A stretch of DNA of 64,000 nt. Origin: Sphingomonas sp. LR60 (GTDB taxonomy: Bacteria > Pseudomonadota > Alphaproteobacteria > Sphingomonadales > Sphingomonadaceae). The position numbers were made by a program, and so were the translations under genes. The stretch covers positions 903,501-967,500 of the forward strand of contig NZ_JASPFK010000001.1 of NCBI RefSeq assembly GCF_036855935.1, in the 5' to 3' direction. Below, in pieces: positions 27,364 to 51,802 of this stretch; the first letter of the stretch is position 1, and the number at the start of each line of letters is the position of its first letter. The notes beneath the pieces are model-generated. The model saw only the letters and a list, made by a program, of their open reading frames with translations. It did no database searches and had not been told where the DNA came from.

Positions 27364-28107
27364 CTATTGTGGTTCGGAAGCCGGTGACGGTGCGGGCTCG
27401 GACGGGTCGTTGCCTGCCGGCGTCGTGATTACTGGCGGCGGAACGACCACAACAGGAATGTTGACGGGTTGCGCGATCGGTGGCGAAGCCGGGCGGTAAA
27501 ACGTTCGCCAGGCGTCGAATTCACGATAAAATTCCACGAACGGTCGATCAAGCCGTAGCAAAGCTGCTCGGGCAAAGGTCGGCAGATCACCGTCCGCCAC
27601 CTGACCGACTTGTGCCACCTCCACGCGGGCGGCCGCGCAGAAGCCCGCACGCATCGCTGGCTGCGCGTAGAAGTTGTAGATACGCGTCTGATCGTCGTCG
27701 TAGACGCGCTGCCAGTCTATCCAGCCGGGCTCTTGCCATTCGCGAACATAGGCCTGGTAGTAGCGGTCGATCGTGGCCGCGTGCCCCTTTATCCAGGCGT
27801 TGTAAGCATCGACGATCCCGCCGCCTTCCAGGTCGCAGCCGAGCGCCGCGACGTTCAACGCGTTGCGCAGATGCCAGACTGCGGCTTGGTCCGTATTGTT
27901 CAGGTTTGGCGTGAAATAGGCACCGTCCTCGAGCTTTGCTGGTATCTTCATGCCGACATAGCCGCCCGCCGGCATTGGAGGGAGCGGGGGCGTGACGGTC
28001 ACGATGGGGAGTGGCGGCTGCACGGGAATGGGCGGCGTAGCGCAGCCCGACATGGTGAGAGCAAGTCCGCCGAATAGTCCCCAGCCAATTTTCACGCGCA
28101 TTGTCAT
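27364..28107 (-). CDS. Hypothetical lipoprotein
   Basis: Not recognised as a named family. The 247-residue product has a lipoprotein signal ending LTMSGC (Cys at about 22), Pro-rich segments at both ends (PPIPVQPPLPIVTVTPPLPPMP; PVVVVPPPVITTPAGNDPSEPAPSPASEPQ), and a helical, aromatic-rich centre (about 60-195) with FTPNLNNTDQAAVWHLRNALNVAALGC and FYREFDAWRTFYRP. The Pro-rich tails look like spacers that could cross peptidoglycan. It is encoded convergently with the efflux operon and stands alone. Two possible starts (28107 and 28101) differ by two residues. Confidence 0.7.
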   Translation of the reverse strand: MTMRVKIGWGLFGGLALTMSGCATPPIPVQPPLPIVTVTPPLPPMPAGGYVGMKIPAKLEDGAYFTPNLNNTDQAAVWHLRNALNVAALGCDLEGGGIVDAYNAWIKGHAATIDRYYQAYVREWQEPGWIDWQRVYDDDQTRIYNFYAQPAMRAGFCAAARVEVAQVGQVADGDLPTFARAALLRLDRPFVEFYREFDAWRTFYRPASPPIAQPVNIPVVVVPPPVITTPAGNDPSEPAPSPASEPQ

Positions 28108-28352
28108 GGTTCGCCCAGATACATCATCGCTACGCTCTTAGCCCGTAGCAGATGATTGCCAAAAGAATGGCAAGCATTGCCGTTCCCCGCTTCCTCTCGG
28201 AGGGTAGGAGACCCCACCCTTTCCGTCAGGTGAGAGCGATCAAACTTGAAAGCTGAGCGGGCGGGGCGTCGACGGTCCAGCTTAAGCGTTCTTCAGTCTG
28301 AACGGTCACGAGACCCGTGCCCTGAGAAGGCTGGCATGCTAGGGCCGCCGAC

Positions 28353-28673
28353 ATGTCGAAATCACAAAGCACCGGCGGAACCGTGACCGTCGACGATATC
28401 ACCTACCAGTGGCAGCTCGAGCGTGAACCGCATCTGTCGGATGATGACGGCTGGAAGGGTATGACGATCGCCCTTCTTCAGCGCGATGCGAAGCGGCAGG
28501 CATGGGTGGAGTTTCCGGCGCCCAAGCGGCTCTTGAAGGGGTTGCCGCGGGGGCGTCTGCAACTCGATGATGCAACGATATCGCGGTGCGTGCGCGCTGC
28601 CTTGTCGGCGGGGTGGGAGCCGATGTCGCGGGGAAAGCCAGTCGTCTTTATGGTCGATGCCGACGGGAATTGA
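28353..28673 (+). CDS. Conserved-looking hypothetical protein, 106 aa
   Basis: Small soluble protein with no signal or membrane helix. It has a compact alternating pattern (VTVDDITYQWQLEREPHLSDDDGWKGMTIALLQ, WVEFPAPKRLLKGLPRGR, ISRCVRAALSAGWEPMSRGKPVVFMVDADGN) and biased but globular composition, suggesting a real gene. No domain recognised. It lies 78 bp upstream of rlmJ on the same strand but has no obvious connection. Confidence 0.65.
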   Translation: MSKSQSTGGTVTVDDITYQWQLEREPHLSDDDGWKGMTIALLQRDAKRQAWVEFPAPKRLLKGLPRGRLQLDDATISRCVRAALSAGWEPMSRGKPVVFMVDADGN

Positions 28674-28751
28674 AGCCGGGAAGGGGGTAGTCGCCTCGCT
28701 CGGACGCGACGGTCACCGCTCGCTCGTTAAGATCACTAGGATTTGAAGTCA

Positions 28752-29582
28752 GTGAATTACCGTCATTCGTTCCATGCCGGAAACAGCGCCGATGTGGTCA
28801 AGCACTGTCTGCTGATGTCCCTCGTCCAGGCCCTGCAGCAAAAACAGAGCGCGCTGACCCTCATCGATACCCACGCCGGCTGCGGGCTCTACGACCTGAA
28901 TGGCGAAGATGCGCAACGCACCGGTGAGTCGGTGCTCGGCGTGCAGCGCGTTATCGATGCCCCGGACCCGCTGCTGGACGACTATCGTGCCGCCGTGCAG
29001 GCCGTGAATGTCGGAACCGGGTCGCACCTCTATCCCGGCTCGCCACGAATATTGGCGCAGCTTCTGCGCCCGCAGGACTCGCTGATCCTGAACGAAAAGC
29101 ATCCCGAGGATGTCCGCATCCTTCGCAGCGTCATGCGCGACACCTCGGCAGCCGTGCACGAGCGAGACGCCTACGAATTCTGGTTGGCGATGGTGCCGCC
29201 CCGCACCGCGCGCGGCGTGGTGGTGGTCGATCCCCCGTATGAGCAAACGGACGAACGAGCCCGGATCACGGCAACCCTCGCTGCCGCTTACCGGAAATGG
29301 GCGCACGGCGTGGTGGTGATATGGTATCCCTTGAAGGACCGCGCGACGCATTGGCGTTGGAAGGAGCAATTGCGCAAGCTTGGCATCGCCAAACTTCTTA
29401 CGGTGGAGCATTGGTTGTACGACGACGATCGACCCGGCATCTACAATGGTGCAGGTCTTTTCATCGTCAACCCGCCCTACGCCTTCACCCAGGCGCTGGC
29501 GCCTCTGCTTGAAGCCCTTCGCGCTGTGCTGGCTCCGGAGGGCCATAGGGGTGAGCTCGAAGTGAGTTGGCTGAACGGGTGA
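28752..29582 (+). CDS. rlmJ: 23S rRNA (adenine-N6)-methyltransferase RlmJ
   Basis: SAM-dependent methyltransferase that modifies 23S rRNA at A2030 (E. coli numbering). The family's N-terminal signature NYRHSFHAGNSADVVKH directly follows the start. LTLIDTHAGCGLYDL forms the SAM-binding motif I, and VVVVDPPYEQ is the catalytic DPPY motif of amino-methyltransferases. GTG at 28752 is preferred: AGGA lies 10 nt upstream and the product begins like E. coli RlmJ, whereas a TTG at 28743 would leave only 1 nt to the same site. The 276-residue length is normal (E. coli 280). Housekeeping gene. Confidence 0.95.
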   Translation: MNYRHSFHAGNSADVVKHCLLMSLVQALQQKQSALTLIDTHAGCGLYDLNGEDAQRTGESVLGVQRVIDAPDPLLDDYRAAVQAVNVGTGSHLYPGSPRILAQLLRPQDSLILNEKHPEDVRILRSVMRDTSAAVHERDAYEFWLAMVPPRTARGVVVVDPPYEQTDERARITATLAAAYRKWAHGVVVIWYPLKDRATHWRWKEQLRKLGIAKLLTVEHWLYDDDRPGIYNGAGLFIVNPPYAFTQALAPLLEALRAVLAPEGHRGELEVSWLNG

Positions 29583-29624
29583 AGTATGTTCGGGGCCGGC
29601 GCAGGACTCCCTGGTTCTCCTATT

Positions 29625-31298
29625 CTATCGCCTGAAACGGATGATGCAGGTGTCGTAGGCACCGATCGACAGTCCGCCGCCAACCTCTCCGGAGGCGCAG
29701 GTCTTTGCGCCGAAGCGCGGGGTCGTGCCCTCGAAACCTTGCAGTGACGGCGTCGACGGGTTGGCGCCCGTGTTGGCGATGACGACCGCACCGTTCTGGT
29801 CGGCGGCTTCGCGCGCGAAGGCGAAGATCTTCGGGTCGCCGCTTTCGAGCGGTATGTAGCGGCCGCTGCGGAACACAGGGTCGGTCTTCCGCAAGGCGAT
29901 TAGCGACCGATACCAGTTGAGCAGCGAACCCGGATCGCGCTCCTGCGCGGCGACGTTGGTGCCGACGTAGCGCTGGTTGGCGGGCAGCCACGGCGTGCCG
30001 GTCGAGAAGCCCGCGTTGCGTGCCGTGCTCCATTGCATCGGGGTGCGCGCACGATCGCGCTCGTCGCTGCGCGGACGATTGGGGTCGAGCGGGACCTTGG
30101 CGAGCGTCGCCTTGTCCATGTCGCCCATCCCGATTTCCTCGCCGTAATACATGAGCGCGGTGCCGGGGTTGAGCAGGGTGAGCGCGGCGGCCATCTTGCC
30201 GATCAGCGCGTCATGCTTGCCGTCGCCGAACTCGCTATACTGGCGCGACTGGTCGTGGTTGCTGAAGAACTCGACCGGCGTGAGCCCCTCGAGCTGCGTC
30301 GCGGCCTCGTCGTAACGCCGCTTGAAGGTCGCGGCATCGAGCTTGTCGATGTTGCCGACCAGGAAGTTCATCGGCAGGTGAATCTCGTCCTTGTCCTTGC
30401 CGTACACCGCCCGCAGTTGCTGGACGTTGCGGGTGGAGGATTCGCCGAGCAGGACCGGGTTGCCGGGGTAGCTGTCGACGATCTTGCGCATCTCGCGAAG
30501 CACCGCGTTGGTGCCGGGCAGTTGAGAGTTGTAGGGTTTCAGCCAGACCGGATCGCCACCGGTCGGATCGGGATCCTGCGGCCATGCCGGGTCTTCGAAG
30601 AGATAGGGGGTAGCGTCGAGCCGAAACCCCGCCGCGCCATGATCCAGCCAGAAGCGCACGACGTCGAACATCGCCTTCTTCAGGCCCGGACTGGACCAGT
30701 TGAGGTCAGGCTGCTGGGAAAGAAAGATGTGGTAATACCATTGCTTGCGGGTCGTGTCCCACGTCCAGGCCGGCCCGCCGAAGATCGACTGCCAATTGGT
30801 GGGCGGCGTGTCCGGGGCGCCATCGCGCCACATATACCAGTCCGCCTTGGGATTGGTTCGTGAACTGCGCGACTCCTTGAACCACGGATGCTCGGCGGAG
30901 CTGTGGTTTACGACGAGATCGACCATCACGCGGATACCGCGCTTCTTCGCTTCGGCGACCAGCCGGTTCCAGTCCGCCATCGTGCCGTATTGCGGATCGA
31001 CCGCGGTGTAATCGGCGACGTCATAGCCGAAGTCGGCATTGGGCGAGGGGAAGAACGGCGTCACCCAGATCGCGTCGACGCCGAGTGCCTTCAGATAGTC
31101 GAGCCGCGACGTGATACCGGGCAAATCACCGACGCCATCGCCGTTCGTGTCCTGGAAGCTGCGTGGATAAATTTCATAGATGACGGCGTGTTTCCACCAT
31201 GGAACCGTCTCTGCCTTTACAGCAGACTGTTGCTGTGCAGCCACGCCACTCGACAATAGCGCGGGGTTTGATAGCGCTACCGAAAGCATCGCACGCAT
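29625..31298 (-). CDS. GH13 alpha-glucosidase/oligo-1,6-glucosidase, probably exported
   Basis: Alpha-amylase superfamily hydrolase of about 557 residues. Conserved regions: YEIYPRSFQDTNGDGVGDLPGI, MVDLVVNHSS (region I), GFRLDATPYLF with nucleophile Asp228 (II), VLLGESST with acid/base Glu286 (III) and FFSNHDQSR with Asp349 (IV). This is the pattern of oligo-1,6-glucosidases and alpha-glucosidases rather than endo-amylases. The N-terminus has a weak signal-like stretch ending VAA-QQ. An upstream ATGAAAAGACTTTG behind GAGAGGA would give a better MKRL start if one base were missing, but this is speculative. Divergent from the TBDR and halogenase genes with a LacI-type palindrome between, so probably part of a maltodextrin- or isomaltose-type regulon. 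Confidence 0.88.
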   Translation of the reverse strand: MRAMLSVALSNPALLSSGVAAQQQSAVKAETVPWWKHAVIYEIYPRSFQDTNGDGVGDLPGITSRLDYLKALGVDAIWVTPFFPSPNADFGYDVADYTAVDPQYGTMADWNRLVAEAKKRGIRVMVDLVVNHSSAEHPWFKESRSSRTNPKADWYMWRDGAPDTPPTNWQSIFGGPAWTWDTTRKQWYYHIFLSQQPDLNWSSPGLKKAMFDVVRFWLDHGAAGFRLDATPYLFEDPAWPQDPDPTGGDPVWLKPYNSQLPGTNAVLREMRKIVDSYPGNPVLLGESSTRNVQQLRAVYGKDKDEIHLPMNFLVGNIDKLDAATFKRRYDEAATQLEGLTPVEFFSNHDQSRQYSEFGDGKHDALIGKMAAALTLLNPGTALMYYGEEIGMGDMDKATLAKVPLDPNRPRSDERDRARTPMQWSTARNAGFSTGTPWLPANQRYVGTNVAAQERDPGSLLNWYRSLIALRKTDPVFRSGRYIPLESGDPKIFAFAREAADQNGAVVIANTGANPSTPSLQGFEGTTPRFGAKTCASGEVGGGLSIGAYDTCIIRFRR

Positions 31299-31382
31299 CA
31301 AAGTCTTTTCATGGGCTGCATCCTCTCTAGTCGTCGGCGAGCCGATTGGCTATTTCATGAAGATAGATGAAAAGTTTGGCAT

Positions 31383-31396
31383 TGCAATCGATTGCA
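31383..31396. promoter_or_regulatory. Perfect LacI-type operator palindrome between GH13 and TBDR genes
   Basis: TGCAATCGATTGCA is a perfect 14-bp palindrome with a central CG, matching the general LacI/GalR-family half-site layout (TGnnAnCGnTnnCA). It lies 84 bp from the GH13 ATG and 80 bp from the receptor ATG, nearly midway between the divergent genes, as expected for a shared operator. No LacI-family gene is present in the window, so the regulator would be encoded elsewhere. Confidence 0.65.
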
Positions 31397-31476
31397 GCAG
31401 CGCGTAGTCGATTCGCATGACTTCAATGTCACGGCGAGTGAAACCGCCGGGCAGCGTTAAAGGAGGGGAATGAGGA

Positions 31477-34344
31477 ATGACGTCTACACGGCAAGTGCTC
31501 GTATGTTCGACCGCGGCGCTGGCGCTGCTCTCCAGCGGTTCGGCCGCAGCACAGACCAACGTCGTTCCCGAACCCGCCCCGGCAACGGACCCTGCCACTG
31601 CACCATTGGTCGACGAGAGTGCATCGGTGCCGCAGGACATCGTCGTCACCGGTCTGCGCGCCAGCCTCGAGCGCGCGCAGGCGTTGAAGAAGAACAGTTC
31701 TTCGGTGATCGAGGCCGTGTCCGCCGAGGATATTGGCAAGCTGCCGCAGTCGAGCGTTGCCGATTCATTGGGGCGTCTCGCTGGTCTGGCCGGCGAGCGT
31801 CGCTCAGGTCGTATCAGCGGCATTTCCGTGCGTGGTTTCCGCGAGGATTTCGTCGGCACGACGCTGAATGGTCGCGAACTGATCGGCATCGGTGACAACC
31901 GCGGCGTCGAATATGACCTGTACCCGGCGGAGATCGTCGGCAGCGCGGTCGTCTACAAGACGCCGGACGCCGGCCTGACCGCGATGGGCGTGGGCGGCAC
32001 GGTCGATATCCGCACCGTCCGCCCGCTGGAGCGCAAGCGCGCGCTGATCGTCAATGGCAGCGTCGAGCAGAACGGCCAGCCGTCGCGCAACCCTGATTTC
32101 AGCAACCGCGGTTATCGTCTGGCGCTGTCGTTCAGCGACAAGTTCGCCAACGACACGATCGGCATTGCGCTGACCGCGGCGACCACGTCGTCACCGGTGC
32201 AGAACCAGTTCTCGAGCGTCTGGGGCTATGCCGACGACGCGGTCACCTCAGGCCCCAATGCGGGCAAGCAGGTGGTGTCCGGCTATGAGGCCGCGGCACG
32301 GTCGCGCGTGCTGAAGCGCGACACGCTGGCGGGCGTCTTGCAATGGCGACCGGACGAGAAGTTCACGGCGACGGTCGATGCGCTCTACATCGACTTCTCG
32401 GATAAGGGCATCTCGCGCGGCTTCATCGAGCAATTGCCGGTGGCCGCGGACGGCAGCGGCATCCTGAGTGCGGACGGCGACCTCGTCACCTCGGCACGCA
32501 CCAGCGGCTATAATTCCGTGCTGCGCAGCGATCCGCTCGACAAACAGGGCAAGCTCTTCGTCGTCGGCGGCAATCTCGCCTTCAAGCCGACGTCGAACCT
32601 GGACCTGACGCTCGATGTGTCTCACTCGAACAGCAGCAAGAACGATACGCGGGGCGAGAGCTATTCGGGCCTGGGCCGCGCGGGCCTGCGGTCGCAGGGG
32701 CCGAACACGATCCGGCAGTGGAACTACACCGATCGCGGCCTGATGTTCTCGAACAACAGCCAGACGTTCGACAATTATTCGGTCGTGAAGCTGGCGGGCC
32801 CGCAATCGTGGGGTGGCAGCCTGGCGCCGATCACGGAGCTGGACACGCCCGCGGCCCGCGCCGCCGGCATCGGCTTCGCGCAGGCGCAGGACGGGTTCGT
32901 GAACTCGGCGCTGTTCGACGAATTCCTGAATGCGGCGCGGATGGAGGCGAATTACCGCTTCGACGACAGCGTGCTGAAGTCGATCAGCGTCGCGCTGCGC
33001 TATTCGGATCATAAAAAGTCCAAGACCAACCAGGGCTTCTTCCTGACCGCGCAGACCTATCCATCCGACGGCCCGATCCCCGAGGACGCACGGCGTGGCG
33101 TCGCCGATCTCAACTGGGCGGGGCTGGGCAATGTCGTTGCCTATGATGCGCTGGGGCTGATCAACAGCGACTTCTACACGCGCTGGGATGCCGGCGCGCT
33201 GGAGCCGGATCGTCTCGGCGATACCTATGCGATCCGCGAAAAGGTGTGGCAGCCGTCGATCAAGGCCGATTTCGAAGTCACGACCGACGCGGTGCGGATG
33301 TTCGGCAACGTCGGGGTGCAGGCGCTGATCACCGATCAGCGCGGCACCGGCTTCACCTCGCTGGTCGGGTCGAACCTGCGCGTGCAGGCGACCCCGATCT
33401 CGGACGGCGCGAAATACACGCGCGTTCTGCCGAGCATGAACCTGAACTTCGACCTGGGGAACGGCCACACCGTGCGCTTCGCCGCATCGAAGGTCGTCAG
33501 CCGGCCGCGTATCGACTATCTCAATCCGGGTTCGTCGGTGAAATTCCGCAACAATGTCGCGGAGGTGACCAGCACCGACCCTGCCCGTGGGCCGTGGTTG
33601 TCGACCGGCGGCAATGCGCGCTTGCGGCCGTATGAGGCGAACCAGCTCGATCTCAGCTACGAATTCTACTTCGCCCCGGACGGGTTCGTCTCGGCGTCGG
33701 GCTTTTACAAGAAGCTTCTGAACTGGAACATCCAGAGCAATACAATCCGCGACTACACCCAGTTCTACATCCCCGGTTATCACCGTGCGGTCAGCAGCGA
33801 TGGGCAGACGGTGTATACGCCGGCCACGTTCCTGGGCGTCGATACCACCTATCGCGGCGGGCTGCGCGGCGAGGTGAAGGGGATCGAGCTTCAGGGATCG
33901 TTCCCGCTGCGGATCCTGACCGGCGCGCTCGACGGCTTCGGCGTTACCGGTGCGGCGGCGTTCACCGATGGCGGATTGGATGAAGACCTCGACATTCCGG
34001 GCCTTTCGGCGCGGGTGTTCCAGGCGACCGCCTATTTCGAGAAGTACGGCTTCTCGGCGCGCGTTTCGGCGAACAGCCGCTCCAAGTGGGTGTCGGAGGA
34101 TCGCGGTGGCAGCAACACGATCGCGCCGCTCAATCGCAGCGGCCAGACGCTGGTCGACGCGCAGATCGGCTACGACTTCGCGGGCACCAACATCCGCTAT
34201 CTGCAGGGGCTGCGCGTATCGTTGCAGGCAATGAACCTGACCGATGCACGCGACACCTATTCGGACTCCGACACGGGGCTGTTCCTTCGCAACGAGCAGT
34301 TCGGCCGCAACTTCATGCTCAACCTGACCTACGCAATCTTCTGA
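31477..34344 (+). CDS. TonB-dependent receptor upstream of two halogenase-like genes
   Basis: Outer-membrane receptor of 955 residues with a signal peptide ending AAA-QT (about 1-26), a TonB box DIVVTG at 54-59 and a plug with VSAEDIGKLPQSSVADSLGRLAGLAGERRSGR and ISVRGFREDFVGTTLNGRE, the version of the plug common in maltose-type (MalA-like) receptors of Caulobacterales and sphingomonads. The barrel ends in FMLNLTYAIF. AAAGGAGGGG sits 8 bp before the ATG. With the divergent GH13 enzyme and shared palindrome, alpha-glucan oligosaccharides are the likely ligand. Hairpin and two flavoprotein genes follow. Confidence 0.92.
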   Translation: MTSTRQVLVCSTAALALLSSGSAAAQTNVVPEPAPATDPATAPLVDESASVPQDIVVTGLRASLERAQALKKNSSSVIEAVSAEDIGKLPQSSVADSLGRLAGLAGERRSGRISGISVRGFREDFVGTTLNGRELIGIGDNRGVEYDLYPAEIVGSAVVYKTPDAGLTAMGVGGTVDIRTVRPLERKRALIVNGSVEQNGQPSRNPDFSNRGYRLALSFSDKFANDTIGIALTAATTSSPVQNQFSSVWGYADDAVTSGPNAGKQVVSGYEAAARSRVLKRDTLAGVLQWRPDEKFTATVDALYIDFSDKGISRGFIEQLPVAADGSGILSADGDLVTSARTSGYNSVLRSDPLDKQGKLFVVGGNLAFKPTSNLDLTLDVSHSNSSKNDTRGESYSGLGRAGLRSQGPNTIRQWNYTDRGLMFSNNSQTFDNYSVVKLAGPQSWGGSLAPITELDTPAARAAGIGFAQAQDGFVNSALFDEFLNAARMEANYRFDDSVLKSISVALRYSDHKKSKTNQGFFLTAQTYPSDGPIPEDARRGVADLNWAGLGNVVAYDALGLINSDFYTRWDAGALEPDRLGDTYAIREKVWQPSIKADFEVTTDAVRMFGNVGVQALITDQRGTGFTSLVGSNLRVQATPISDGAKYTRVLPSMNLNFDLGNGHTVRFAASKVVSRPRIDYLNPGSSVKFRNNVAEVTSTDPARGPWLSTGGNARLRPYEANQLDLSYEFYFAPDGFVSASGFYKKLLNWNIQSNTIRDYTQFYIPGYHRAVSSDGQTVYTPATFLGVDTTYRGGLRGEVKGIELQGSFPLRILTGALDGFGVTGAAAFTDGGLDEDLDIPGLSARVFQATAYFEKYGFSARVSANSRSKWVSEDRGGSNTIAPLNRSGQTLVDAQIGYDFAGTNIRYLQGLRVSLQAMNLTDARDTYSDSDTGLFLRNEQFGRNFMLNLTYAIF

Positions 34345-34359
34345 TCGGCCCGGTGCGCG

Positions 34360-34382
34360 CCATCCCGGCAATGCCGGGGTGG
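34360..34382. terminator. Intercistronic hairpin between receptor and halogenase genes
   Basis: Arms CCATCCCGGC and GCCGGGGTGG around AAT form a 10-bp stem with one wobble pair, 16 bp after the receptor stop and 53 bp before the halogenase start. No T-run. It may be a partial terminator or mRNA-stabilising hairpin that sets the receptor-to-enzyme expression ratio. Confidence 0.45.
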
Positions 34383-34434
34383 CCGCGTTACGGCAAGGAC
34401 CGTAAGACCGGCGACGAACCGGGGAGGAAGCGAC

Positions 34435-35931
34435 ATGTCAGCAGCGATCGAGCGGGTCGTGATCGTGGGCGGCGGCACTGCAGGGTGGATGACCGCCGCG
34501 CTGCTGGTTCGTGTGCTGGGCGACCAGATCGCGATCGAGATGGTCGAATCCGAGGAGATCGGGATCATCGGCGTCGGTGAGGCGACGATCCCGCCGATCC
34601 AGCATGTGAACGCGACGCTCGGGGTCGACGAGGCCGAGTTCCTGCGCGAAACCAAGGCGACGATCAAGCTGGCGATCCGGTTCGACGATTGGGGAGCGAT
34701 CGGCGACCGTTACTTCCACACCTTCGGCACCGCCGGGCGTAACACCGGCTTCTGCGCCTTCCATCATTATTGGCGACGCGCGCGGGAGGCCGGGGCTGAC
34801 CTGAACTACTGGGATTTCGACCTCAACTATCTGGCGGCGCGTGAGGGACGGTTCGCGAAGTTGCGCGATGGCGACCCGGAATATGCGCTGCCCTACGCCT
34901 ATCACTTCGATTCCGCCCTCTATGGCCAGTATCTTCGCCGCTACAGCGAGCGGCGCGGCGTGCGCCGCACCGAAGGCATGATCGCGAGCACCCGGCGCGA
35001 TGCCGAGACTGGTGCGGTCACCACGCTGGTCCTGCGCGACGGGCGCGAGATCGCTGGCGACCTGTTCATCGATTGCTCGGGCGCGCGCGGGTTGCTGATC
35101 CAGCAGCAATTGAACGTCGGTTACGAGGATTGGAATCACTGGTTGCCGTGCGACCGTGCGCTGGCGGTGCCGTCGCGGCTTACCGGGCCGACCGATCCCT
35201 ACACGCGCGCGATCGCGCGTAGCGCGGGATGGCAGTGGCGGATCCCGTTGCAGCACCGCGTCGGCAACGGGCTGGTCTATAGCAGTCGCCATTTGAGCGA
35301 CGATGACGCCGCCGACCTGTTGCTCGGATCACTGGAGGGCGAGGCGCTGGCCGATCCGCGGCCGATTACCTTCCGCACCGGTCGGGCGCGCCGGCAATGG
35401 GACCGCAACGTCGTGGCGATCGGCCTGTCCAGCGGCTTCCTGGAGCCGTTGGAGTCGACCAGCATCTACCTGATCCAGTCCGCGATCGTGCGATTGCTGC
35501 ACCTGTTTCCGGGGCACGGCATCGATCCGCGCGTGGTCGCCGAATACAATCGGCAGTCGCAGCTGGAATATGAGACCGTGCGCGACTTCATCATTCTTCA
35601 CTATCACGCCACGCAGCGCGACGACTCCGCATTCTGGCGGGATCTGCGTGCGATGCCGCTGCCCGACCGGCTGGCAGCGAAGATCGCGCTGTTCCGGGCG
35701 ACCGGCACGCTGTCGCAGGACCCGTTCGACATTTTCATGGAGCCGTCGTGGGTGCAGGTGATGCTGGGGCAGGGCATCGTTCCGCGCGCGCACCATCCGC
35801 TCGCCGACGGACCCACGACCGCCGAGTTGCGCGAGCAGCTGAGTGAGTTAGCGGCGGCGCGGCGCGCGCCAGTGGCGGCGATGCCGCTGCACGATGCATT
35901 CCTGGATGCGTTCGGTGGTCGCGCCGCGTGA
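34435..35931 (+). CDS. Tryptophan 7-halogenase-like flavoprotein (first of two)
   Basis: FADH2-dependent halogenase family protein of 498 residues. VGGGTAGWMTA (11-21) is the FAD-binding Rossmann motif, Lys78 in KATIKLAIRF matches the catalytic lysine of PrnA/RebH, WQWRIP at 266-271 is the WxWxIP motif diagnostic of flavin halogenases, and FLEPLESTSIYLIQ contains the conserved segment near the chloride/FAD site. All residues needed for halide oxidation by hypohalous acid transfer are thus present. GGGGAGGAAG precedes the ATG. Members of this branch sit downstream of TBDRs in many sphingomonads and Caulobacterales; their natural substrate is mostly unknown and need not be tryptophan. A role in modifying imported ligand is possible. 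Confidence 0.9.
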   Translation: MSAAIERVVIVGGGTAGWMTAALLVRVLGDQIAIEMVESEEIGIIGVGEATIPPIQHVNATLGVDEAEFLRETKATIKLAIRFDDWGAIGDRYFHTFGTAGRNTGFCAFHHYWRRAREAGADLNYWDFDLNYLAAREGRFAKLRDGDPEYALPYAYHFDSALYGQYLRRYSERRGVRRTEGMIASTRRDAETGAVTTLVLRDGREIAGDLFIDCSGARGLLIQQQLNVGYEDWNHWLPCDRALAVPSRLTGPTDPYTRAIARSAGWQWRIPLQHRVGNGLVYSSRHLSDDDAADLLLGSLEGEALADPRPITFRTGRARRQWDRNVVAIGLSSGFLEPLESTSIYLIQSAIVRLLHLFPGHGIDPRVVAEYNRQSQLEYETVRDFIILHYHATQRDDSAFWRDLRAMPLPDRLAAKIALFRATGTLSQDPFDIFMEPSWVQVMLGQGIVPRAHHPLADGPTTAELREQLSELAAARRAPVAAMPLHDAFLDAFGGRAA

Positions 35932-37388
35932 CCCCGCCTGCACAAATCGTAATTTTGGGCGGTGGAAGTGCGGGGTGGATCACCGCCAACCTGCTGGCGC
36001 ACGCGTGGCCGGCAAGTTGTATCACCCTGATCGAGGCGCCGGAGATCGGCACGATCGGGGTAGGTGAAGGCTCGACACCGTCGCTCAAGCGCTTCTTCGA
36101 GATCATCGGCATCGCCGAAGACGTGTGGATGCCGCGCTGCCAGGCGACCTACAAAGTCGGGATCCGCTTTGCAGGCTGGAGCCCAGCCGCGCCGTGGACC
36201 GATTACCGGCATCCGTTCACGACGCAGATCGACGTGCATACCGAGGAAGCGTTCGTGCTCAACTGCCGCAATCGGCGGTTGGGCCATGACGTACCGGTGC
36301 GACCCGACGATTTCCTGCTCAACGGCGTGCTCGCGGCGCGCGGGCTGGCGCCGGTTGCGCCGCCGCATTTTCCGTTCCGCATTGAATATGGCTACCATTT
36401 CGACGCGGGCCTGCTCGGTGCCTTCCTGCGCGACACCGCTGTGGCAGGCGGCGTGGAGCATCGCGCGGCACGCGTGACCGGTGCCATGCGCGCCGCGGAC
36501 GGTGACGTCGAGGCGCTGGTTCTCGACGGTGGCGAGCGCATCGCGGCCGACCTGTTCGTCGATTGCAGCGGTTTTGCGGGTCTGCTGATCGAACGGACGC
36601 TCGGCGTGCCGTTCGTCAGCTATCGCGGGCAGTTGTTCAACGATGCAGCGGTGGTCGTGCAGACGCCGCTGACGGACGCGCCGGCGGTCGAGACATTGTC
36701 GACTGCGCTATCGGCGGGCTGGTGCTGGTCGATCCCGCTGCGACACCGCATCGGACACGGCTATGTCTATGCTGGCGATTTCCTGTCCGCCGAAGCGGCC
36801 GAGCGCGAGTTGCGCATCGCCAGCGGCTGCGGCGAGGCGGCGGCGATACGACATCTGCGATTCCGGACCGGGCGGATGGCGCGGCATTGGGAGCGCAACT
36901 GCCTGGCGGTCGGGCTCGCGCAAGGCTTCATCGAGCCGCTGGAGGCGACGGCGTTACATTTGGTGCTCAACACCGTCGAGCAATTCATCGATCATTATGC
37001 AACGGGCACGCGTGATGCGTTCAACGACATCATCTCGGCGCGCTTCGATGGCGTGCGGGACTATATCGCCGCGCATTACAAGCTGACCTCGCGCGCCGAC
37101 ACCGACTATTGGCGCGCGAACGCTGCTAACGAGGATATGCCTGACGCGTTGCTGCACTTCCTCGACGCATGGTTCCGTCGCGCCGACCTTAGCGAGGCGC
37201 TTCGTCAGATCGGAGAACGGGCGCAGTTCGGCAGCCTGTCGTGGCATTGCCTGCTGGCCGGTTACGGTGCGTTCCCTGCGGTGACACAGCCTGCGCGGAG
37301 CGACGTCGATTTCTACGCTGCGCGCAGTGTCGCGACCTTCTTGAACGGATGCAGCCGCAACTTCGATGCGGTGTCGTACCCGAGCTAG
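35928..37388 (+). CDS. Tryptophan halogenase-like flavoprotein (second of two)
   Basis: Second flavin-dependent halogenase-family protein, 486 residues. The GTG start overlaps the preceding TGA (GTGA), so the two are translationally coupled. It has the Rossmann motif LGGGSAGWITA (10-20), Lys76 in QATYKVGIRF, WCWSIP at 265-270 (WxWxIP), and GFIEPLEATALHL, where the usual Ser-Thr is replaced by Ala-Thr. It is clearly diverged from its neighbour, so this is not a recent duplication. Two coupled halogenases could form a hetero-complex or act on different positions or substrates. The flavin reductase they require is not encoded nearby. Confidence 0.88.
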   Translation: MTPPAQIVILGGGSAGWITANLLAHAWPASCITLIEAPEIGTIGVGEGSTPSLKRFFEIIGIAEDVWMPRCQATYKVGIRFAGWSPAAPWTDYRHPFTTQIDVHTEEAFVLNCRNRRLGHDVPVRPDDFLLNGVLAARGLAPVAPPHFPFRIEYGYHFDAGLLGAFLRDTAVAGGVEHRAARVTGAMRAADGDVEALVLDGGERIAADLFVDCSGFAGLLIERTLGVPFVSYRGQLFNDAAVVVQTPLTDAPAVETLSTALSAGWCWSIPLRHRIGHGYVYAGDFLSAEAAERELRIASGCGEAAAIRHLRFRTGRMARHWERNCLAVGLAQGFIEPLEATALHLVLNTVEQFIDHYATGTRDAFNDIISARFDGVRDYIAAHYKLTSRADTDYWRANAANEDMPDALLHFLDAWFRRADLSEALRQIGERAQFGSLSWHCLLAGYGAFPAVTQPARSDVDFYAARSVATFLNGCSRNFDAVSYPS

Positions 37389-37440
37389 ATATCTCGAACG
37401 AAGAGTGCGTTCTGGCAATCGGAGGCAAGCCGAACTGCGT

Positions 37441-38775
37441 TCACGTAAACACCGACAAACAAAGTACGAGCAGGAGCGCGATTACCGAGATCAACGTCTC
37501 GCAAACCGTCCAGCTACGGATCGTGTCGGTGACGCTCAGCCCGAAGTACTCCTTCACCAACCAAAAGCCGCCGTCGTTGACGTGGCTTAGCACGACCGAC
37601 CCTGCGCCGGTGGCGAGCACCAGCAATTCAGGTCGCACCGCCGGCTGGGCGGCGGCGAGTGGTGCCACGATCCCGGCGGCGGTCGCCATGGCGACGGTCG
37701 CCGATCCGGTCGCCACCCGCATCAGCGCCGCGATCGACCAGGCAAGCACCAGCACCGGGACGTGCCATTGCGTGGCCAGCCCCACCAGCGCGCCGGACAC
37801 CCCGCCGTCGGTCAGCATCCGGCCGAAGCCGGCGCCGACGCCCACGACGAGCGTGATCAGCGCGGTCGGGGCAAGGCAGTCGTTGGTGTAGCGCTGGATC
37901 GTCTCCATCGTCAGCCCGCGCGCGAGTCCGAGCGTCCAGTAGCTCGCCAGCACCGCGAAGAGCAGCGCGACCACCGGCGTTCCGACGAAGCGGACGATCT
38001 GGTCCGCAGTCGAGCCAGGTATCGTGATCGTTGCGCCGACGCTCCCTAGCAGCATCAGCGCGACCGGCAGCAACAGGGTGGCGACGGTGATGCCGAAGCC
38101 CGGCAGCACGCGGTCGGGCCTCTCCGCGACCGGCGTCATCGACGGCGCGGCAGGAGCAAGGCGCGGCACGATCAACCGGGCGTAGAGCGGCCCGGCGATG
38201 GCGGCGGTCGGAACGCCGACGATCAGCGCGAACAGCACGGTCAGCCCGACGTCGGCGCCGAACGCCTGGGTCGCCAGCATCGCGGCGGGGTGGGGCGGTA
38301 CCATCGCATGGACGACCGACAAGCCCGCCGCCATCGGCAGCCCGAGCCGCATCGGATGCTGCCCCAGCCGGGCGGCCACCGCGAAGACGATCGGCACCAG
38401 CAGCACGAAGCCAACCTCGAAGAACACCGGCAAGCCGACGATCAGCGCGACCGTCATCATCGCCCAGTCGGCGCGGCGTGCGCCGAAAAAGCCGATGACG
38501 GTTTGCGCAACCTGGTCCGCGCCGCCCGACTCGACCATCATTTTGCCGAGGATCGTTCCCAGCGCGACGACGAGCGCGATATGGCCGAGTGCGCCGCCGA
38601 CCCCGGCCTCGAACGCCTTGACGATCGAGGCCGGGGGCAGCCCAGTCGCCAGCGCAAGGCCGAGCGAGACCAGCACCAGCGCGATGAATGGGCTGAGCCG
38701 GACACGGACGATCAGCGCGATCAGGATCGCGACCGCGGCCGCGCCCTCGATCAGCAACAGCGTGCCGGACGCCAC
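37441..38775 (-). CDS. GntP-family permease (gluconate / D-serine DsdX type)
   Basis: Inner-membrane proton symporter of 444 residues with 12-14 hydrophobic segments. LGTILGKMMVESGGADQVAQTVIGFFGARRADWAMMTVALIVGLPVFFEVGFVLLVPIVFAVA and HAMVPPHPAAM are hallmark stretches of the GntP family. The family carries gluconate and related acids, but also D-serine (DsdX, about 445 residues). The genes upstream encode RidA, a D-aminoacylase and a D-serine dehydratase-like enzyme, so a D-amino acid is the more likely substrate here. GTG start immediately follows the RidA TAA with no gap. Specificity is inference. Confidence 0.88.
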   Translation of the reverse strand: MASGTLLLIEGAAAVAILIALIVRVRLSPFIALVLVSLGLALATGLPPASIVKAFEAGVGGALGHIALVVALGTILGKMMVESGGADQVAQTVIGFFGARRADWAMMTVALIVGLPVFFEVGFVLLVPIVFAVAARLGQHPMRLGLPMAAGLSVVHAMVPPHPAAMLATQAFGADVGLTVLFALIVGVPTAAIAGPLYARLIVPRLAPAAPSMTPVAERPDRVLPGFGITVATLLLPVALMLLGSVGATITIPGSTADQIVRFVGTPVVALLFAVLASYWTLGLARGLTMETIQRYTNDCLAPTALITLVVGVGAGFGRMLTDGGVSGALVGLATQWHVPVLVLAWSIAALMRVATGSATVAMATAAGIVAPLAAAQPAVRPELLVLATGAGSVVLSHVNDGGFWLVKEYFGLSVTDTIRSWTVCETLISVIALLLVLCLSVFT

Positions 38776-39168
38776 TTACGGTTTCTTCCAAGCCACGCAG
38801 TCCACCTCGACCTTGCAGTCGACCACCATCTGCGACACCACGCAGGCGCGCGCCGGCGGGTTGGCGCCGAAATATTCCTTGAAGATGCGGTTGAACGACA
38901 TGAAGTCGCGCGCATCGTCCAGCCACACGCCGCAGCGCACGACATGCTCAGGGCCGTAGCCGGCCTCCTCCAGGATCTTCAGGACGTTGCGGATCGCCTG
39001 GTGCGTTTGCGGGACGATCCCGCCATCGATCACCTCGCCATCGACCATCGGCACCTGTCCAGAGACGTAGAGCCAGCCGTCGGCCTGTACTGCGCGTGCA
39101 AAGGGCAAATGCTGCCCGCCGGTGCCGCTGCCGCCTTCGACGCCGTAGCGCTTGATCCCGTCACTCAT
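38776..39168 (-). CDS. RidA-family enamine/imine deaminase
   Basis: Cytoplasmic Rid protein of 130 residues that hydrolyses reactive enamines/imines such as 2-aminoacrylate released by PLP enzymes. GWLYVSGQVP, GGIVPQTHQAIRNVLKILEEAG and ARDFMSFNRIFKEYFGANPPARACVV are the family motifs, and Arg107 in PARACV corresponds to the catalytic Arg105 of RidA. It overlaps the end of the D-aminoacylase gene by 8 bp. In this cluster it would detoxify or complete the product of a PLP-dependent D-serine dehydratase. Confidence 0.9.
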   Translation of the reverse strand: MSDGIKRYGVEGGSGTGGQHLPFARAVQADGWLYVSGQVPMVDGEVIDGGIVPQTHQAIRNVLKILEEAGYGPEHVVRCGVWLDDARDFMSFNRIFKEYFGANPPARACVVSQMVVDCKVEVDCVAWKKP

Positions 39169-40636
39169 TCATCGATCCTCTTCGTTGAAAAACGTTCTGG
39201 CTTTCCGGGCGGCGCAGCATCTGGCCGGCGCGCGCGCCGGTCATCCCGGCGCGATCAAGCGTCGCGACGCCATTGACCCACACGCCCAGCACGCCCGCGG
39301 CGGGCTGCTCGGGATCGTCGTAGCGGGCGCGGTCCGCGATCCGTGCGGGATCGAACAGCACGAGATCCGCCGCCATGCCGGCACGTACATAGCCGCGATC
39401 CACCAGCCCGAAGCGATCCGCGGCCAGTCCGGTCATCTTGCGGATCGCCGCTGGGAGCGACAACAGGCCGCGCTTGCGAACGTAATGCGCGATGACACGT
39501 GGGAAGCTGCCCCATAGTCGTGGGTGCGGACGCGGATCGCAGGGCAAGCCGTCCGACCCGATCATGGTCAGCCGGTGGGCGAGGATGCGGTCGACGTCGG
39601 CCTCGGCCATGCAATGATAGACGGCGCCGGCCGGTTGCAGCCGTTTGGCGGCGTCCAGCGGCGCGACGCCCCAGTCTGCGGCGATCTCACTTAGCATCCG
39701 GCCAACCTGCGCCGGCTCCGCGTCCGACCAGGTAATCATGATCGGCGTTTCCGGGACGACCTGCCCCAGGTCGAGCGTCGAGGAACTGGCGGTATAGGGA
39801 TAACAGTCACAGCCGACCGGATGCGTGGCGGCGGCCACCTCCAATTGTTCGAGAATGGCACCGCTGCGGCCATGTTGCGGCGCACCCGCGCATTTCAGGT
39901 GCGAGACCACCAGCGGCGCAGTGGCATGGCGAGCGATGGCGACCGCCTCGTCGATCGCAGCGCTGATGCCGCTGCCCTCGCTGCGCAGGTGGGTGCAATA
40001 GACGCCGCTCGTCCCGCGCAACGCCGCAGCGACGGCCATCACCTCGTCCGTAGAGGCCTGAATTGCATTGGCATAGGCCAGTCCGGTCGAGAAGCCGAAC
40101 GCCCCGGCTGCCAGCGCTTCGGCGAGGTCGGCGCGCATTGCGCTGCGCTCCGCGACGCTGGCGTCACGGTCGAGCCGGTCGAGATGTCGCGCGCGCAAGG
40201 CTGTGTGGCCGACCAGCGCGGCGACGTTGGTTGCGGGGCCAGTGGCGTCGACCGCAGCGGCGTAAGCGGCGAACGTGGCGTAACGGAACGCCTCCGGTGC
40301 GCCGAGCAACACCATGGGATCGGGCAAGGTATCACCGGTGGCACAGCCGGCGCCTGCGCTGATCCCGCAGTTGCCGACGACGACCGTCGTGACGCCCTGC
40401 GTGACCTTTGCCGTCATCAAAGGGCGTGTGATTACAACGAGATCGTCATGGGTATGCGCGTCGATGAAGCCGGGTGCGAGGGCGAGGCCGCGCGCGTCGA
40501 TAGAGCCGGTGGCGGGTGGGTCGCTCGCCGGCGTGATGGCGGCGATGCGGCCGGCGCGGATCGTCACGTCGGCGAGGAAGCCCTCGCTGCCGGTGCCGTC
40601 GTAGAGCATCGCTCCGGCAATCGTCGTTTCGGTCAT
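39161..40636 (-). CDS. N-acyl-D-amino-acid deacylase (D-aminoacylase)
   Basis: Zinc amidohydrolase that removes the acyl group from N-acyl-D-amino acids, 491 residues. ATG at 40636 is chosen because GGGAGGAGGG lies just upstream; the open frame extends to 40672 without support. Motifs: FIDAHTHDD with His61 and His63, GNCGIS with Cys90 (bridging metal ligand in characterised D-aminoacylases), CTHLRSEG and VVSHLKCAG supplying two further His ligands, and IGSDGLPCDPRPHPRLWGSFPRVI near the C-terminus, a strong family signature. Together with RidA and the permease it forms an operon transcribed away from a PLP enzyme. It would release free D-amino acids from N-acylated peptidoglycan- or metabolite-derived forms. 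Confidence 0.93.
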   Translation of the reverse strand: MTETTIAGAMLYDGTGSEGFLADVTIRAGRIAAITPASDPPATGSIDARGLALAPGFIDAHTHDDLVVITRPLMTAKVTQGVTTVVVGNCGISAGAGCATGDTLPDPMVLLGAPEAFRYATFAAYAAAVDATGPATNVAALVGHTALRARHLDRLDRDASVAERSAMRADLAEALAAGAFGFSTGLAYANAIQASTDEVMAVAAALRGTSGVYCTHLRSEGSGISAAIDEAVAIARHATAPLVVSHLKCAGAPQHGRSGAILEQLEVAAATHPVGCDCYPYTASSSTLDLGQVVPETPIMITWSDAEPAQVGRMLSEIAADWGVAPLDAAKRLQPAGAVYHCMAEADVDRILAHRLTMIGSDGLPCDPRPHPRLWGSFPRVIAHYVRKRGLLSLPAAIRKMTGLAADRFGLVDRGYVRAGMAADLVLFDPARIADRARYDDPEQPAAGVLGVWVNGVATLDRAGMTGARAGQMLRRPESQNVFQRRGSMNE

Positions 40637-40707
40637 GATGCCCTCCTCCCGCATTGTCACTGCGCCCCGCAATTAAGTAAACGTCTTGGAGTTTCAGGAG
40701 GCTGGCG

Positions 40708-41937
40708 GTGACGGTGATCGAGTTGAACAAGGGGGTGGGCCAGGGTGAGGGGCCGTGGGACCTGCTGGCCGGCGATGTGCCGTTCCCTGCCGCGGTGCTG
40801 AGCGCGTCGAGGATGGCGCACAATCTCGCGTGGATGCGTTCGTTTATCGAGGCTTACGACATGGCGCTCGCACCGCATGGGAAGACCAGCATGGCGCCCG
40901 CGCTGTTCCGGCGGCAGCTCGATGCCGGGGCGTGGGGCATTACCGTCGCCACCAGCCAGCAGGCGGAAGTGGCGGCAGCGCATGGTGTCGGACGCATTTT
41001 GATCGCCAATCAGGTCGTGGGTGCAGCGAATGTCGCCAAAATAGCCGGGCTTGCAGCGCGTCCGGACCTCGATTTGCTGTGTCTGGTCGACAGTCCGGCG
41101 GGTGTGGCGATGCTGGGGACCGCATGTCGCGCGCGCGGCGTGACGCTCGACGTGCTGATCGAGCTGGCGCCCGAACGCGACCAGCCGGGCTTCCGAACCG
41201 GCATCCGTGACGAGGCGCAACTCGCGGCGTTGCTCGACGCGCTTGCCGAGTGGGGCGGCGTTTTGCGGCTGGCGGGGATCGAATTCTACGAAGGCGTGCT
41301 GCCCGACGAAGCCGAGGTGCGCCGCTTCGTGCGGCGCGCGGTGGACGTCGTCACGCGGCTGGTGCGCGCGGGAGCGATCGAGCGCGCGCCCGCGATCCTG
41401 ACCGGTGCGGGATCGGCGTGGTATGATGTCGTGGCGGAGGAGAGCGCGGGGGCGACGCGCGACGGCGCGGTGCAGGTGCTGCTTCGGCCGGGCTGTTATC
41501 TGAGCCACGACGACGGCCTGTACCGCGCCGCGCAGGAGCGGATCCTCGAGCGAAACCCGGTCGCCCCGACGCTCGGCGAAGCGCTGCTGCCGGCGCTGCG
41601 CATCTGGGCGGTGGTGCAGTCGATCCCCGATCCGGCCCGCGCTGTAGTGGCGATGGGCAAGCGCGACGTCGCCTTCGACGCCGGGCTGCCACGTCCCGCG
41701 ACCCTGTTTCGCCCCGGCCGCGACACCAGCCCGGCGACCGCGCCCGCGCATTGGGAGGTCACCGGCCTGATGGACCAGCACGCCTATCTGGCGATCACGC
41801 CGGGCGACGATCTGGCGGTCGGCGACGTGCTGGCCTTCGATATCTCGCATCCGTGCCTGACCTTCGACAAATGGCGGCGCGTGCTGGTCGCCGACGACGC
41901 GCATCGCGTAGTGGAGGTGGTGGAGACGTTCTTCTGA
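40708..41937 (+). CDS. Zn/PLP D-serine dehydratase / D-threonine aldolase-like enzyme
   Basis: Fold-type III PLP enzyme of 409 residues, with an alanine-racemase-like barrel and a C-terminal beta domain. Lys59 in APHGKTSMAP is the likely Schiff-base lysine. SHPCLTFDKW contains His381 and Cys383, matching the HxC zinc pair of eukaryotic-type D-serine dehydratase and D-threonine aldolase. GTG start at 40708 with AGGAGG 6 nt upstream. Divergent from the D-aminoacylase operon with 71 bp between. D-Ser to pyruvate via aminoacrylate, or D-Thr to Gly plus acetaldehyde, are both possible; the RidA partner favours a dehydratase. Confidence 0.87.
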   Translation: MTVIELNKGVGQGEGPWDLLAGDVPFPAAVLSASRMAHNLAWMRSFIEAYDMALAPHGKTSMAPALFRRQLDAGAWGITVATSQQAEVAAAHGVGRILIANQVVGAANVAKIAGLAARPDLDLLCLVDSPAGVAMLGTACRARGVTLDVLIELAPERDQPGFRTGIRDEAQLAALLDALAEWGGVLRLAGIEFYEGVLPDEAEVRRFVRRAVDVVTRLVRAGAIERAPAILTGAGSAWYDVVAEESAGATRDGAVQVLLRPGCYLSHDDGLYRAAQERILERNPVAPTLGEALLPALRIWAVVQSIPDPARAVVAMGKRDVAFDAGLPRPATLFRPGRDTSPATAPAHWEVTGLMDQHAYLAITPGDDLAVGDVLAFDISHPCLTFDKWRRVLVADDAHRVVEVVETFF

Positions 41938-41958
41938 GCGTCGCCACCGGGGAGGGGC

Positions 41959-46373: not shown

Positions 46374-46411
46374 TCGCTCTCCCGATCGTGGCAGCGCCGC
46401 CCGCGGGGGCA

Positions 46412-49400: not shown

Positions 49401-49710
49401 GGGTCCGCGAAGCCGCGAAGCCGCTGTTGCGGAGCAATTGAGTGAGCGCAGTGCCGACCGGCATCGTGCCGGAAACGGCCGGCGCGCGGCGGGTCGCGAG
49501 CCGCGCCTCGTCGAAGACGATCTGGATATGCGCCTGCTGCGCCAGCGTGCGCAGCGCCTGCGCCAATGGCTGGGGACGAACATCGATCGGCACCGCGGTC
49601 TGCTGCGCTTGTGCGGGCGTCGCCGCGAGCGCCGCGGTCAACATCGTCGCTGCCAAGGCGATCGTGCTCGAACGCGCAACGATAATACCAAACCCACTCC
49701 TGCCGATCAT
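46412..49710 (-). pseudogene. STN-domain TonB-dependent receptor (FecA-like transducer), one-base frameshift
   Basis: Outer-membrane receptor that both imports and signals. Signal peptide ends AQA-QQ (about 1-36); the secretin/TonB short N-terminal (STN) domain (about 41-112, IDVRPQPLAQALRTLAQQAHIQIVFDEARLATR) contacts the FecR-type anti-sigma factor; TonB box DIVVTG is at 155-160; then plug with VTNRLGQVQPDAQQNYQQSNGQQRGVKLRGLDFNRTLSLINGQRI. The frame breaks in a C4 run at 48710-48713 (G4 coding): ATWG should continue HNFLDDRLNVSVYGTYRTADG and then LRVNNLICG. The C-terminal 724 codons are intact to ISVSATTRF. Repaired length 1099. Followed by GH20 and GH29 genes, so the ligand is probably a fucosylated amino-sugar glycan. 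Indel likely technical. Confidence 0.87.
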
Positions 49711-49762
49711 ACCGCCCCCATTTTTTGGTTACCGCAATATGACGTGTGACGATGCGAAACCC

Positions 49763-50850
49763 TCAGCGCAGAGCAGATCTTTTTTGCGATACTGTCGGTA
49801 ACGGCTGATTTCGAGCCGAATTGGTATGGTCCGGCCGAAGCGGCGCCAGCAGGATGGCGCCTTCCGATACGACCGCGCGTACCGGAAAGGCAGCGACCAC
49901 GCCCTGCACGAAGGCGTCAGTGTCGCCGGTGTTGAACACCCCGCTGACCCGCACGTCGGCCGCTTGCGGCGAGACGGTGATCGGCTTGCCGACATTGTAA
50001 CGATTGACCCGCTGGACCGCGACGGTCAGCGGCTCGCTGGCAAACGACAATTGCCCGCCGCCCGGTCGATCACCGATCGACGCGGCGCGCAACGTCGCCT
50101 CCGCCGTATCGTCGGACAGGATCAACTCGCGACCGGGGGTCAGCGCCTGCTCGGCTGGCTCGCGTCCACCCGAAACCCGCGCGAGCTGCGTCGACGGGCC
50201 GCTGCCACGATCGCGCAGCACCGCGACATGCCCCTCATAGAGCGCGACGCGCACCTCGCGCGACAGCCGCTCGACCGAGAACGCCGTGCCGACCGCCACC
50301 ACCACGCTGGTGCCGCTCGTCACCGCGAACGGGCGCAACGGGTTCTTGGCAACCTTGAAACTGGCGCGCCCGCGTTCGAGCGTCAGGTCGCGCCGGTCGT
50401 CGCTGAACCGTACGCGGACCGCGCTGTCGGCATCCAGCACCATCGTCGATCCGTCGGCGAGCACCACGGCGCGCTGTTCGCCGACGCGCGTCTCGTAAAG
50501 CGTCGCGCGGTCGCGCAGCAGCAGCGTGACGCCGACCGCAAGGAGCAACGCGGCGGCAAGTGCCAGCCATGGCGCGACGCTTCCGCGCGGGGAGTCCAGC
50601 GTCGTCGTCCTGCCACCTGCACCGCCGCCAGCGCCTGCTGCCGCAGCGGCAGCAGCTCGGGGGCGTGCGCGTCGAGCGCGATCCCGTCCCACAGCCGCCG
50701 CGTCCGCGCGAAGCGTTCACGATGCGCCGGATCCTGTGCCAGCCATGCGTCGAGCGCCTGCTGCTCGGCGGTGGAGGGATCGCCCTCATGAAGGCGCAGG
50801 CACCAGGCAATGGCCTGATCGTCGATCGCCTGTTCGCGGGCGGTGCTCAT
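49763..50850 (-). pseudogene. FecR-family anti-sigma factor, one-base frameshift
   Basis: Inner-membrane sigma regulator. The start overlaps the sigma gene stop (ATGA). The cytoplasmic DUF4880-type part (about 1-85) reads AIAWCLRLHEGDPSTAEQQALDAWLAQDPAHRERFARTRRLWDGI. The frame is lost near 50600-50612; one added base links AAVQVAG to TTTLDSPRGSVAPW and the transmembrane helix LALAAALLLAVGVTLLL. The FecR domain follows (VLADGSTMVLDADSAVRVRFSDDRRDLTLERGRASFKVAKNPLRPFAVTSGTSVVVAVGTAFSVE) and a C-terminal DUF4974-like part that would bind the receptor STN domain. Repaired length 362, usual for the family. The exact indel position is uncertain because the linker is not conserved. Confidence 0.85.
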
Positions 50851-51374: not shown

Positions 51375-51448
51375 AGAGAGTAGACGGGTGAGCGGTCGAA
51401 AGACACAGCGACCGCGGCGAATTTCGGTCCGAACCTCCGATAACAGGG

Positions 51449-51781: not shown

Positions 51782-51802
51782 GACTGCCGTCTGATCGTCT
51801 GC

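Follow-up and report, generated by a model that had tools for sequence, protein, structure and literature searches.

A LacI-type operator and two flavin-dependent halogenase-like genes at a sugar receptor locus of Sphingomonas sp. LR60

The locus described here lies in a stretch of 64,000 nucleotides of the Sphingomonas sp. LR60 genome (contig NZ_JASPFK010000001.1, positions 903,501 to 967,500), hereafter the window, within which all coordinates are given unless a contig is named. A perfect 14-bp LacI-type palindrome lies between two divergent genes, one for a GH13 alpha-glucosidase-type enzyme and one for a TonB-dependent receptor (TBDR). Behind the receptor gene stand two genes, named FDH1 and FDH2, of the flavin-dependent halogenase (FDH) family PF04820, whose enzymes put bromine or chlorine on tryptophan-like rings. 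The features are as follows.

29625..31301, minus strand: GH13 exo-alpha-glucosidase / sucrose-isomerase-type enzyme (PF00128, 425.4 bits)
31382..31397, no strand: LacI-type operator TTGCAATCGATTGCAG, in the intergenic region of the divergent GH13 and TBDR genes, some 80 bp away from either start
31477..34344, plus strand: TBDR of the TonB-Xanth-Caul type (TIGR01782, 448.5 bits, cut-off 310; Plug domain PF07715)
34435..35931, plus strand: FDH1, open-site flavin-dependent halogenase-like protein of the EPLEST type (PF04820, 625.9 bits; Lys78, Glu340, Ser341)
35928..37388, plus strand: FDH2, second halogenase-like protein, of the EPLEAT type (PF04820, 394.3 bits; Lys76, Glu339, Ala340)

Both FDH scores exceed the PF04820 cut-off of 21 bits. 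FDH1 is spaced 90 bp from the TBDR gene, and the two FDH genes overlap by 4 bp (GTGA), the GTG being the start codon of FDH2 and overlapping the stop of FDH1. An initial annotation of this DNA had described a receptor gene followed by two halogenase-family genes with this overlap, and the family scores bear it out; its term "fused" does not fit, since the genes are co-directional and not fused. A sigma-70 scan of 29500-38000 found no promoter-like site, the gap between TBDR and FDH1 contains no terminator-like site, two weak terminator-like sites both fall within coding sequence, and the locus has no Rfam match. The GH13 enzyme is probably exported; its start codon is ambiguous, the mechanically called reading frame opening with TTG. 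Its nearest solved chains are the alpha-glucosyltransferase 6aav, the alpha-glucosidases 2ze0 and 3wy1, and sucrose isomerases, and its translation contains DLVVNH, GFRLDA, LLGES and SNHD, which we take to be the GH13 catalytic motifs.

Downstream of FDH2, genes for a GntP permease, a RidA-type protein and an amidohydrolase lie convergently on the opposite strand. As initially annotated, no flavin reductase, tryptophan or natural-product (secondary-metabolite) genes were found by Pfam and NCBIfam models among the flanking proteins of 27364-29582 and 37441-44304, the remaining window having been sampled only. The missing neighbouring reductase means little, because one PF01613 reductase, the sole match to this family in the genome, is encoded at C1:3555409, far from the locus.

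The initial annotation had also proposed that the GH13 and TBDR genes share a LacI-type palindrome, and this was upheld at the genome scale. The 14-bp core of the operator, TGCAATCGATTGCA, has only two exact sites in the 3.94-Mb genome, one at the window locus and the other at a locus designated L207, where a copy with one mismatch lies 23 bp from the exact site; the backward-pattern control gave 0 genome sites. A further palindrome-like match at 31268-31283, within the GH13 reading frame, was set aside as chance. The second exact site has a LacI gene on one side and a TBDR gene on the other; these are followed by an amylosucrase/sucrose-hydrolase-type GH13 gene (best solved matches 2wpg, 9r8i and 3cze) and by a gene for an MFS protein that matches the sucrose/proton symporter model in part (97.5 bits, short of the cut-off of 511). 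Locus L207 resembles the sux CUT locus of Xanthomonas (SuxR, SuxC, SuxB, SuxA) and the suc locus of Caulobacter (PMC1790865); unlike the sux locus, the window locus has no amylosucrase-type enzyme or transporter of its own, and that paper makes no mention of a halogenase (0 occurrences). The operator core of the window locus is thus identical to that at the regulator's own locus, as for a member of a SuxR/LacI regulon. Because the operator is common to the window and a sux-like locus bearing its own LacI, sucrose or a related alpha-glucoside is, on sequence grounds, a likelier inducer than maltose.

An upstream survey covered 74 FDH-paired TBDR genes from alpha-glucoside or EPLEAT loci, with crude shuffles as a control. 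The motif CAATCGATTG was found upstream of 8 of them (shuffle mean 0.04), and another LacI-type core, ATACGTAT, precedes 25 (shuffle mean 0.34). These counts suggest that LacI-type control is common in such loci, with at least two operator types, of which the window carries what reads as the sux-like one. Loci with ATACGTAT upstream of the TBDR gene include L030, L033-L035, L046, L131, L140 and L175, and four of these (L030, L033-L035) bear AATCGATT as well.

In order to assess the conservation of the receptor and its two FDH genes, genome contigs were scanned with FDH2, which gave 52 loci from Sphingomonas, Novosphingobium and Alteromonadaceae-type Gammaproteobacteria, including Rheinheimera. 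TBDR, FDH1 and FDH2 follow one another in this order and on one strand in 42 of these loci, found in Sphingomonadales and Alteromonadales and representing two bacterial classes, and FDH1 and FDH2 mostly overlap there or stand tens of bases apart. A GH13, GH97 or LacI gene is present within the fetched stretch in 35 of the 42. Two other loci (L037, L038) show FDH1 and FDH2 and then the contig end, and five (L056, L068, L073, L075, L080) have FDH2 with neither TBDR nor FDH1 in view; among the latter, the contig of L068 is short, while L075 has a different FDH-TBDR arrangement. FDH2 is present in 29 of 149 genomes of the family (E <= 1e-100), stretches having been fetched for 21 of these 29, the LR60 genome included, and in 18 of 398 genomes of the phylum. 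Where the EPLEAT gene is not in tandem, all 18 sphingomonad stretches contain GH13 and GH97 together with both FDH genes, in the order FDH1, GH13, GH13, GH97, FDH2 in all except L136. The placement of the halogenase-like genes in an alpha-glucoside uptake context, as initially annotated, was thus recovered well beyond the window.

In the tree, the EPLEAT sequences group together in a single clade (71 plus one other), and the 45 FDH1 sequences of tandem cassettes group in another, each with a support of 1.0. The idea that EPLEAT proteins are an alpha-glucoside-only subfamily was rejected: distant members occur in loci with TBDR and Cupin_8 genes (L227, L233, L234), and members in L226 and L228 lie beside TBDR genes with no GH13 or GH97 in view. 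Nine more distant FDH2-type loci contain a TBDR in eight cases, three of these with Cupin_8 and without GH13 or GH97. Because distant members sit with TBDR and Cupin_8 genes in this way, the EPLEAT type is not limited to alpha-glucoside loci.

Both FDH proteins keep the FAD motif (GGGTAGW in FDH1, GGGSAGW in FDH2), the WxWxIP motif (WQWRIPL and WCWSIPL, respectively) and the catalytic Lys, all of which the initial annotation had listed; FDH2 has Ala at the position of PrnA Ser347. Mapping on PrnA and BrvH placed Lys78, His95, Phe97, Glu340, Ser341 and Thr342 of FDH1 and Lys76, His95, Phe97, Glu339, Ala340 and Thr341 of FDH2 in equivalent positions, the Lys and Glu of both proteins corresponding to K79 and E346 of PrnA. 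The mapping also draws on the roles of His101 and Phe103 in the reference enzymes. The indole-pocket residues H95, F97, F434 and S438 are found in both window proteins. Lys, His95, Phe97 and Ser438 are unchanged in all 45 FDH1 and all 53 FDH2 rows of the alignments, one short FDH1 row lacking the N-terminal motifs, and F434 is replaced by Tyr in 2 of the 53 FDH2 rows. EPLEST occurs in 45/45 FDH1 rows and EPLEAT in 53/53 FDH2 rows; the Ala beside the catalytic Glu is, judging from these rows, a signature of the FDH2 subfamily. Other PrnA and BrvH residue roles were taken from PMC5945002.

According to the alignment alone, substrate loop 1 is no longer in either protein than in BrvH, and substrate loop 2 is ungapped to BrvH in FDH1 and five residues longer in FDH2; neither protein has the long lid over free tryptophan of the PrnA/RebH/PyrH type. 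Both show the open-site pattern of BrvH and Xcc4156, that is, short loops together with retention of the indole-pocket His, Phe and Ser. With the Rossmann motif beginning at residue 8-11, there is no room for a signal peptide, and the FDHs are predicted to be cytoplasmic.

The nearest solved chains of FDH1 are 9luq, 6y1w (Xcc4156) and 6frl (BrvH). BrvH and Xcc4156 resemble FDH1 in belonging to PF04820, in the catalytic Lys, the Glu-Ser-Thr, the indole-pocket residues and the short substrate loops. PDB 5uao, which we take to be MibH, was also among the matches of the FDH queries. BrvH and Xcc4156 have open sites and brominate indoles and not free tryptophan, and peptides were proposed as their substrates (PMC5945002, PMC7336383); the native substrate of enzymes of this type is stated to be unknown (PMC7336383). 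The brvH gene likewise has a second FDH gene adjoining it (PMC5945002). The window pair differs in lying within a regulated receptor operon and in the EPLEAT subfamily of FDH2, and the main texts of PMC5945002, PMC7336383 and PMC8269204 never use the term "TonB" (0 occurrences). MibH, cited as a model for a peptide-bound tryptophan substrate (PMC7336383), differs by its distant sequence and its membership of an antibiotic cluster, the window having no identified precursor peptide. A further parallel is the CciT-CciO pair of Caulobacter, in which the function of a TBDR requires a neighbouring cytoplasmic 2OG/Fe oxygenase (PMC12004947). It differs in serving iron uptake, in Fur control and in the enzyme family; by analogy, it shows a precedent for the dependence of a TBDR on an oxygenase.

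The association of halogenase-like genes with receptors is not peculiar to this alpha-glucoside locus. The LR60 genome contains 14 PF04820 matches in seven regions; they are taken as 13 genes, one of which is split over two frames. A TBDR is present in all seven regions, these receptors being 7 of 26 TIGR01782 matches over the cut-off. The regions also hold SapC, Cupin_8/JmjC, DUF6445, a ROK regulator, a GH2 exo-beta-glucosaminidase-type enzyme and an alpha-galactosidase. Among 70 sphingomonad stretches around FDH genes, a TBDR lies within 500 bp in 54, within 3 kb in six more and farther away in one. The window TBDR has seven matches in the 149 family genomes, and an FDH follows in six of these, being absent in L132. 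Of the seven genomes behind the incomplete loci, the six of Alteromonadales type have TBDR matches, and an FDH lies immediately downstream of all ten TBDR genes matched there. What the FDH loci share is the receptor. SapC (PF07277), Cupin_8/JmjC (PF13621) or DUF6445 (PF20043) accompany the TBDR-halogenase loci L015, L017, L018 and L020. The split paralogue L019 (C1:2044810-2046179) is probably broken or a sequencing error. A large expansion, with 15 to 20 halogenase-like matches each, is seen in genomes G149, G150 and G155, the sources of L056, L080 and L073.

The arrangement would be best explained by a LacI-controlled uptake operon for an alpha-glucoside of the sucrose or malto-oligosaccharide type, in which FDH1 and FDH2 would be cytoplasmic flavin enzymes in service of the receptor system, not of secondary metabolism, with a general reductase of the cell as their source of FADH2. 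The likeliest substrate may be a polypeptide of the uptake system, foremost the receptor precursor prior to export. Because the loops are short and BrvH and Xcc4156 brominate indoles, not free tryptophan, the simplest guess is an indole side chain that is part of a larger molecule; the receptor precursor stands first among the candidates because the receptor is what the FDH loci have in common. Gene order, its conservation, the residues and the shared operator are observed, whereas we infer the cytoplasmic location of the FDHs, the halogenation or oxidation, the polypeptide nature of the substrate and the receptor as that substrate. It is therefore only tentatively proposed that this dedicated FDH pair modifies an indole side chain of a large substrate linked to the receptor, possibly the receptor's own precursor. 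A broader version holds that indole side chains of sugar receptors are halogenated (or oxidised) before export by operon-encoded open-site halogenase pairs, that this is the native role of BrvH/Xcc4156-type enzymes, and that they are one part of a larger group of cytoplasmic oxygenases that modify receptors (FDH, Cupin_8/JmjC, SapC, DUF6445); in this full form it appears distinctly unlikely. Both estimates are kept low because the receptor tryptophans do not track the FDHs and because FDH2 stands apart from the receptor gene in two loci.

Several results weigh against receptor modification. FDH2 follows a TBDR without FDH1 in L061, L062 and L069, a point qualified by FDH1-like genes elsewhere in genomes G149 and G151-G153, and it is separated from the receptor gene in L056 and L080. 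No TBDR was recognised in 9 of the 70 sphingomonad FDH stretches, three of them edge-cut. Ala340 of FDH2 replaces the Ser that FDH1 keeps beside the catalytic Glu. Alignment of FDH-paired and unpaired TBDRs found that receptor tryptophans do not track FDH presence. W249 and W445 are clade-wide, yet they also occur in L132, an alpha-glucoside locus without FDH, and in the unpaired second TBDR of L078. At position 445, Trp stands in 58% of the 26 non-redundant rows of paired TBDRs against 15% of the 20 rows of unpaired ones, and in 52/52 FDH-paired TBDRs of alpha-glucoside loci; because L132 keeps it as well, this Trp seems to be a feature of the receptor clade. The same weakness applies to WG, which occurs 2.24 times per paired TBDR (0.94 expected) and 1.25 times per unpaired one (0.98 expected). 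Overall, Trp is not enriched in paired TBDRs (9.1 against 10.6 per 1000 in unpaired ones, mostly from whole proteins, 96/106 untrimmed). The TBDR-FDH mirror-tree gave r = 0.71 for 82 pairs and r = 0.56 for 26 non-redundant pairs, with 0 of 2000 permutations reaching either; these values are given no weight because shared descent alone can yield them, and within the LR60 genome the TBDR and FDH distances are uncorrelated (r = -0.72, 4 pairs).

The separability of FDH2 from the receptor gene in L056 and L080 would suit an explanation in which the FDHs act on a small aromatic entering with or released from the sugar, such as the aglycone of an aryl or indolyl glucoside, or make a small protective or signalling product of feeding. 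BrvH does turn free indole into 3-bromoindole, but its activity on indole is low, 2.5 mU/mg (PMC5945002). Moreover, the same FDH families stand beside a GH2 exo-beta-glucosaminidase-type enzyme, an alpha-galactosidase or no enzyme at all, and because the enzymes differ between loci, no single ligand accounts for the FDHs; Pfam and NCBIfam showed no genes for export or detoxification within the operon. This explanation is considered somewhat unlikely. The alternative partners Cupin_8/JmjC, SapC and DUF6445, which point less to halogenation as such than to oxidation or handling of a common target, and the loss of the Ser beside the catalytic Glu in 53/53 FDH2 orthologues would be accommodated if the FDHs were not halogenases in the cell, and instead carried out FAD-dependent oxidation (hydroxylation, cross-linking) without halide or served as folding or regulatory partners of the receptor. 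Lys, Glu and the halide-loop Thr are nevertheless retained in both proteins, needlessly for a non-catalytic role, and FDH1 belongs to the EPLEST type of active brominases, which leaves this explanation rather unlikely. It is highly improbable that the genes merely hitchhike behind the receptor or are remnants of a natural-product cluster: the genes downstream (GntP, RidA, amidohydrolase) are convergent and unrelated, as hitchhiking would allow, but the order is kept in 42/52 loci of two classes, the catalytic residues are invariant and both clades have full support (1.0).

Elsewhere in the window, 37441-41937 looks like a D-amino-acid catabolism cluster, with genes for the GntP permease, the RidA-type protein, a D-aminoacylase-like amidohydrolase and a D-serine dehydratase/hydroxyaspartate aldolase-like protein. 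The segments 44064-54069 and 54068-56227 encode a GH20 hexosaminidase, an STN-domain TBDR over two reading frames (46412-48586 and 48529-49710) and a further TBDR. At 56855-63978, an ShlB/FhaC-type transporter gene adjoins that of a 1983-aa protein in which 13 YDG stretches were matched, forming a two-partner secretion pair.

The literature search found no paper joining TBDR sugar loci with these halogenases; subscription papers were mostly outside the search, so an earlier notice is possible. What is new here is the conserved TBDR-FDH1-FDH2 order, the operator shared with a sux-like locus, the seven FDH regions of one genome each with a TBDR, and the residue and lid pattern of both FDHs. For many enzymes of the BrvH/Xcc4156 type, all that is known comes from model substrates. 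The conserved operon, together with an operator that points to sucrose or a related sugar, suggests when they should be made and where to look first for the native one; halogenation would then be tied to nutrient uptake and not to the making of antibiotics.

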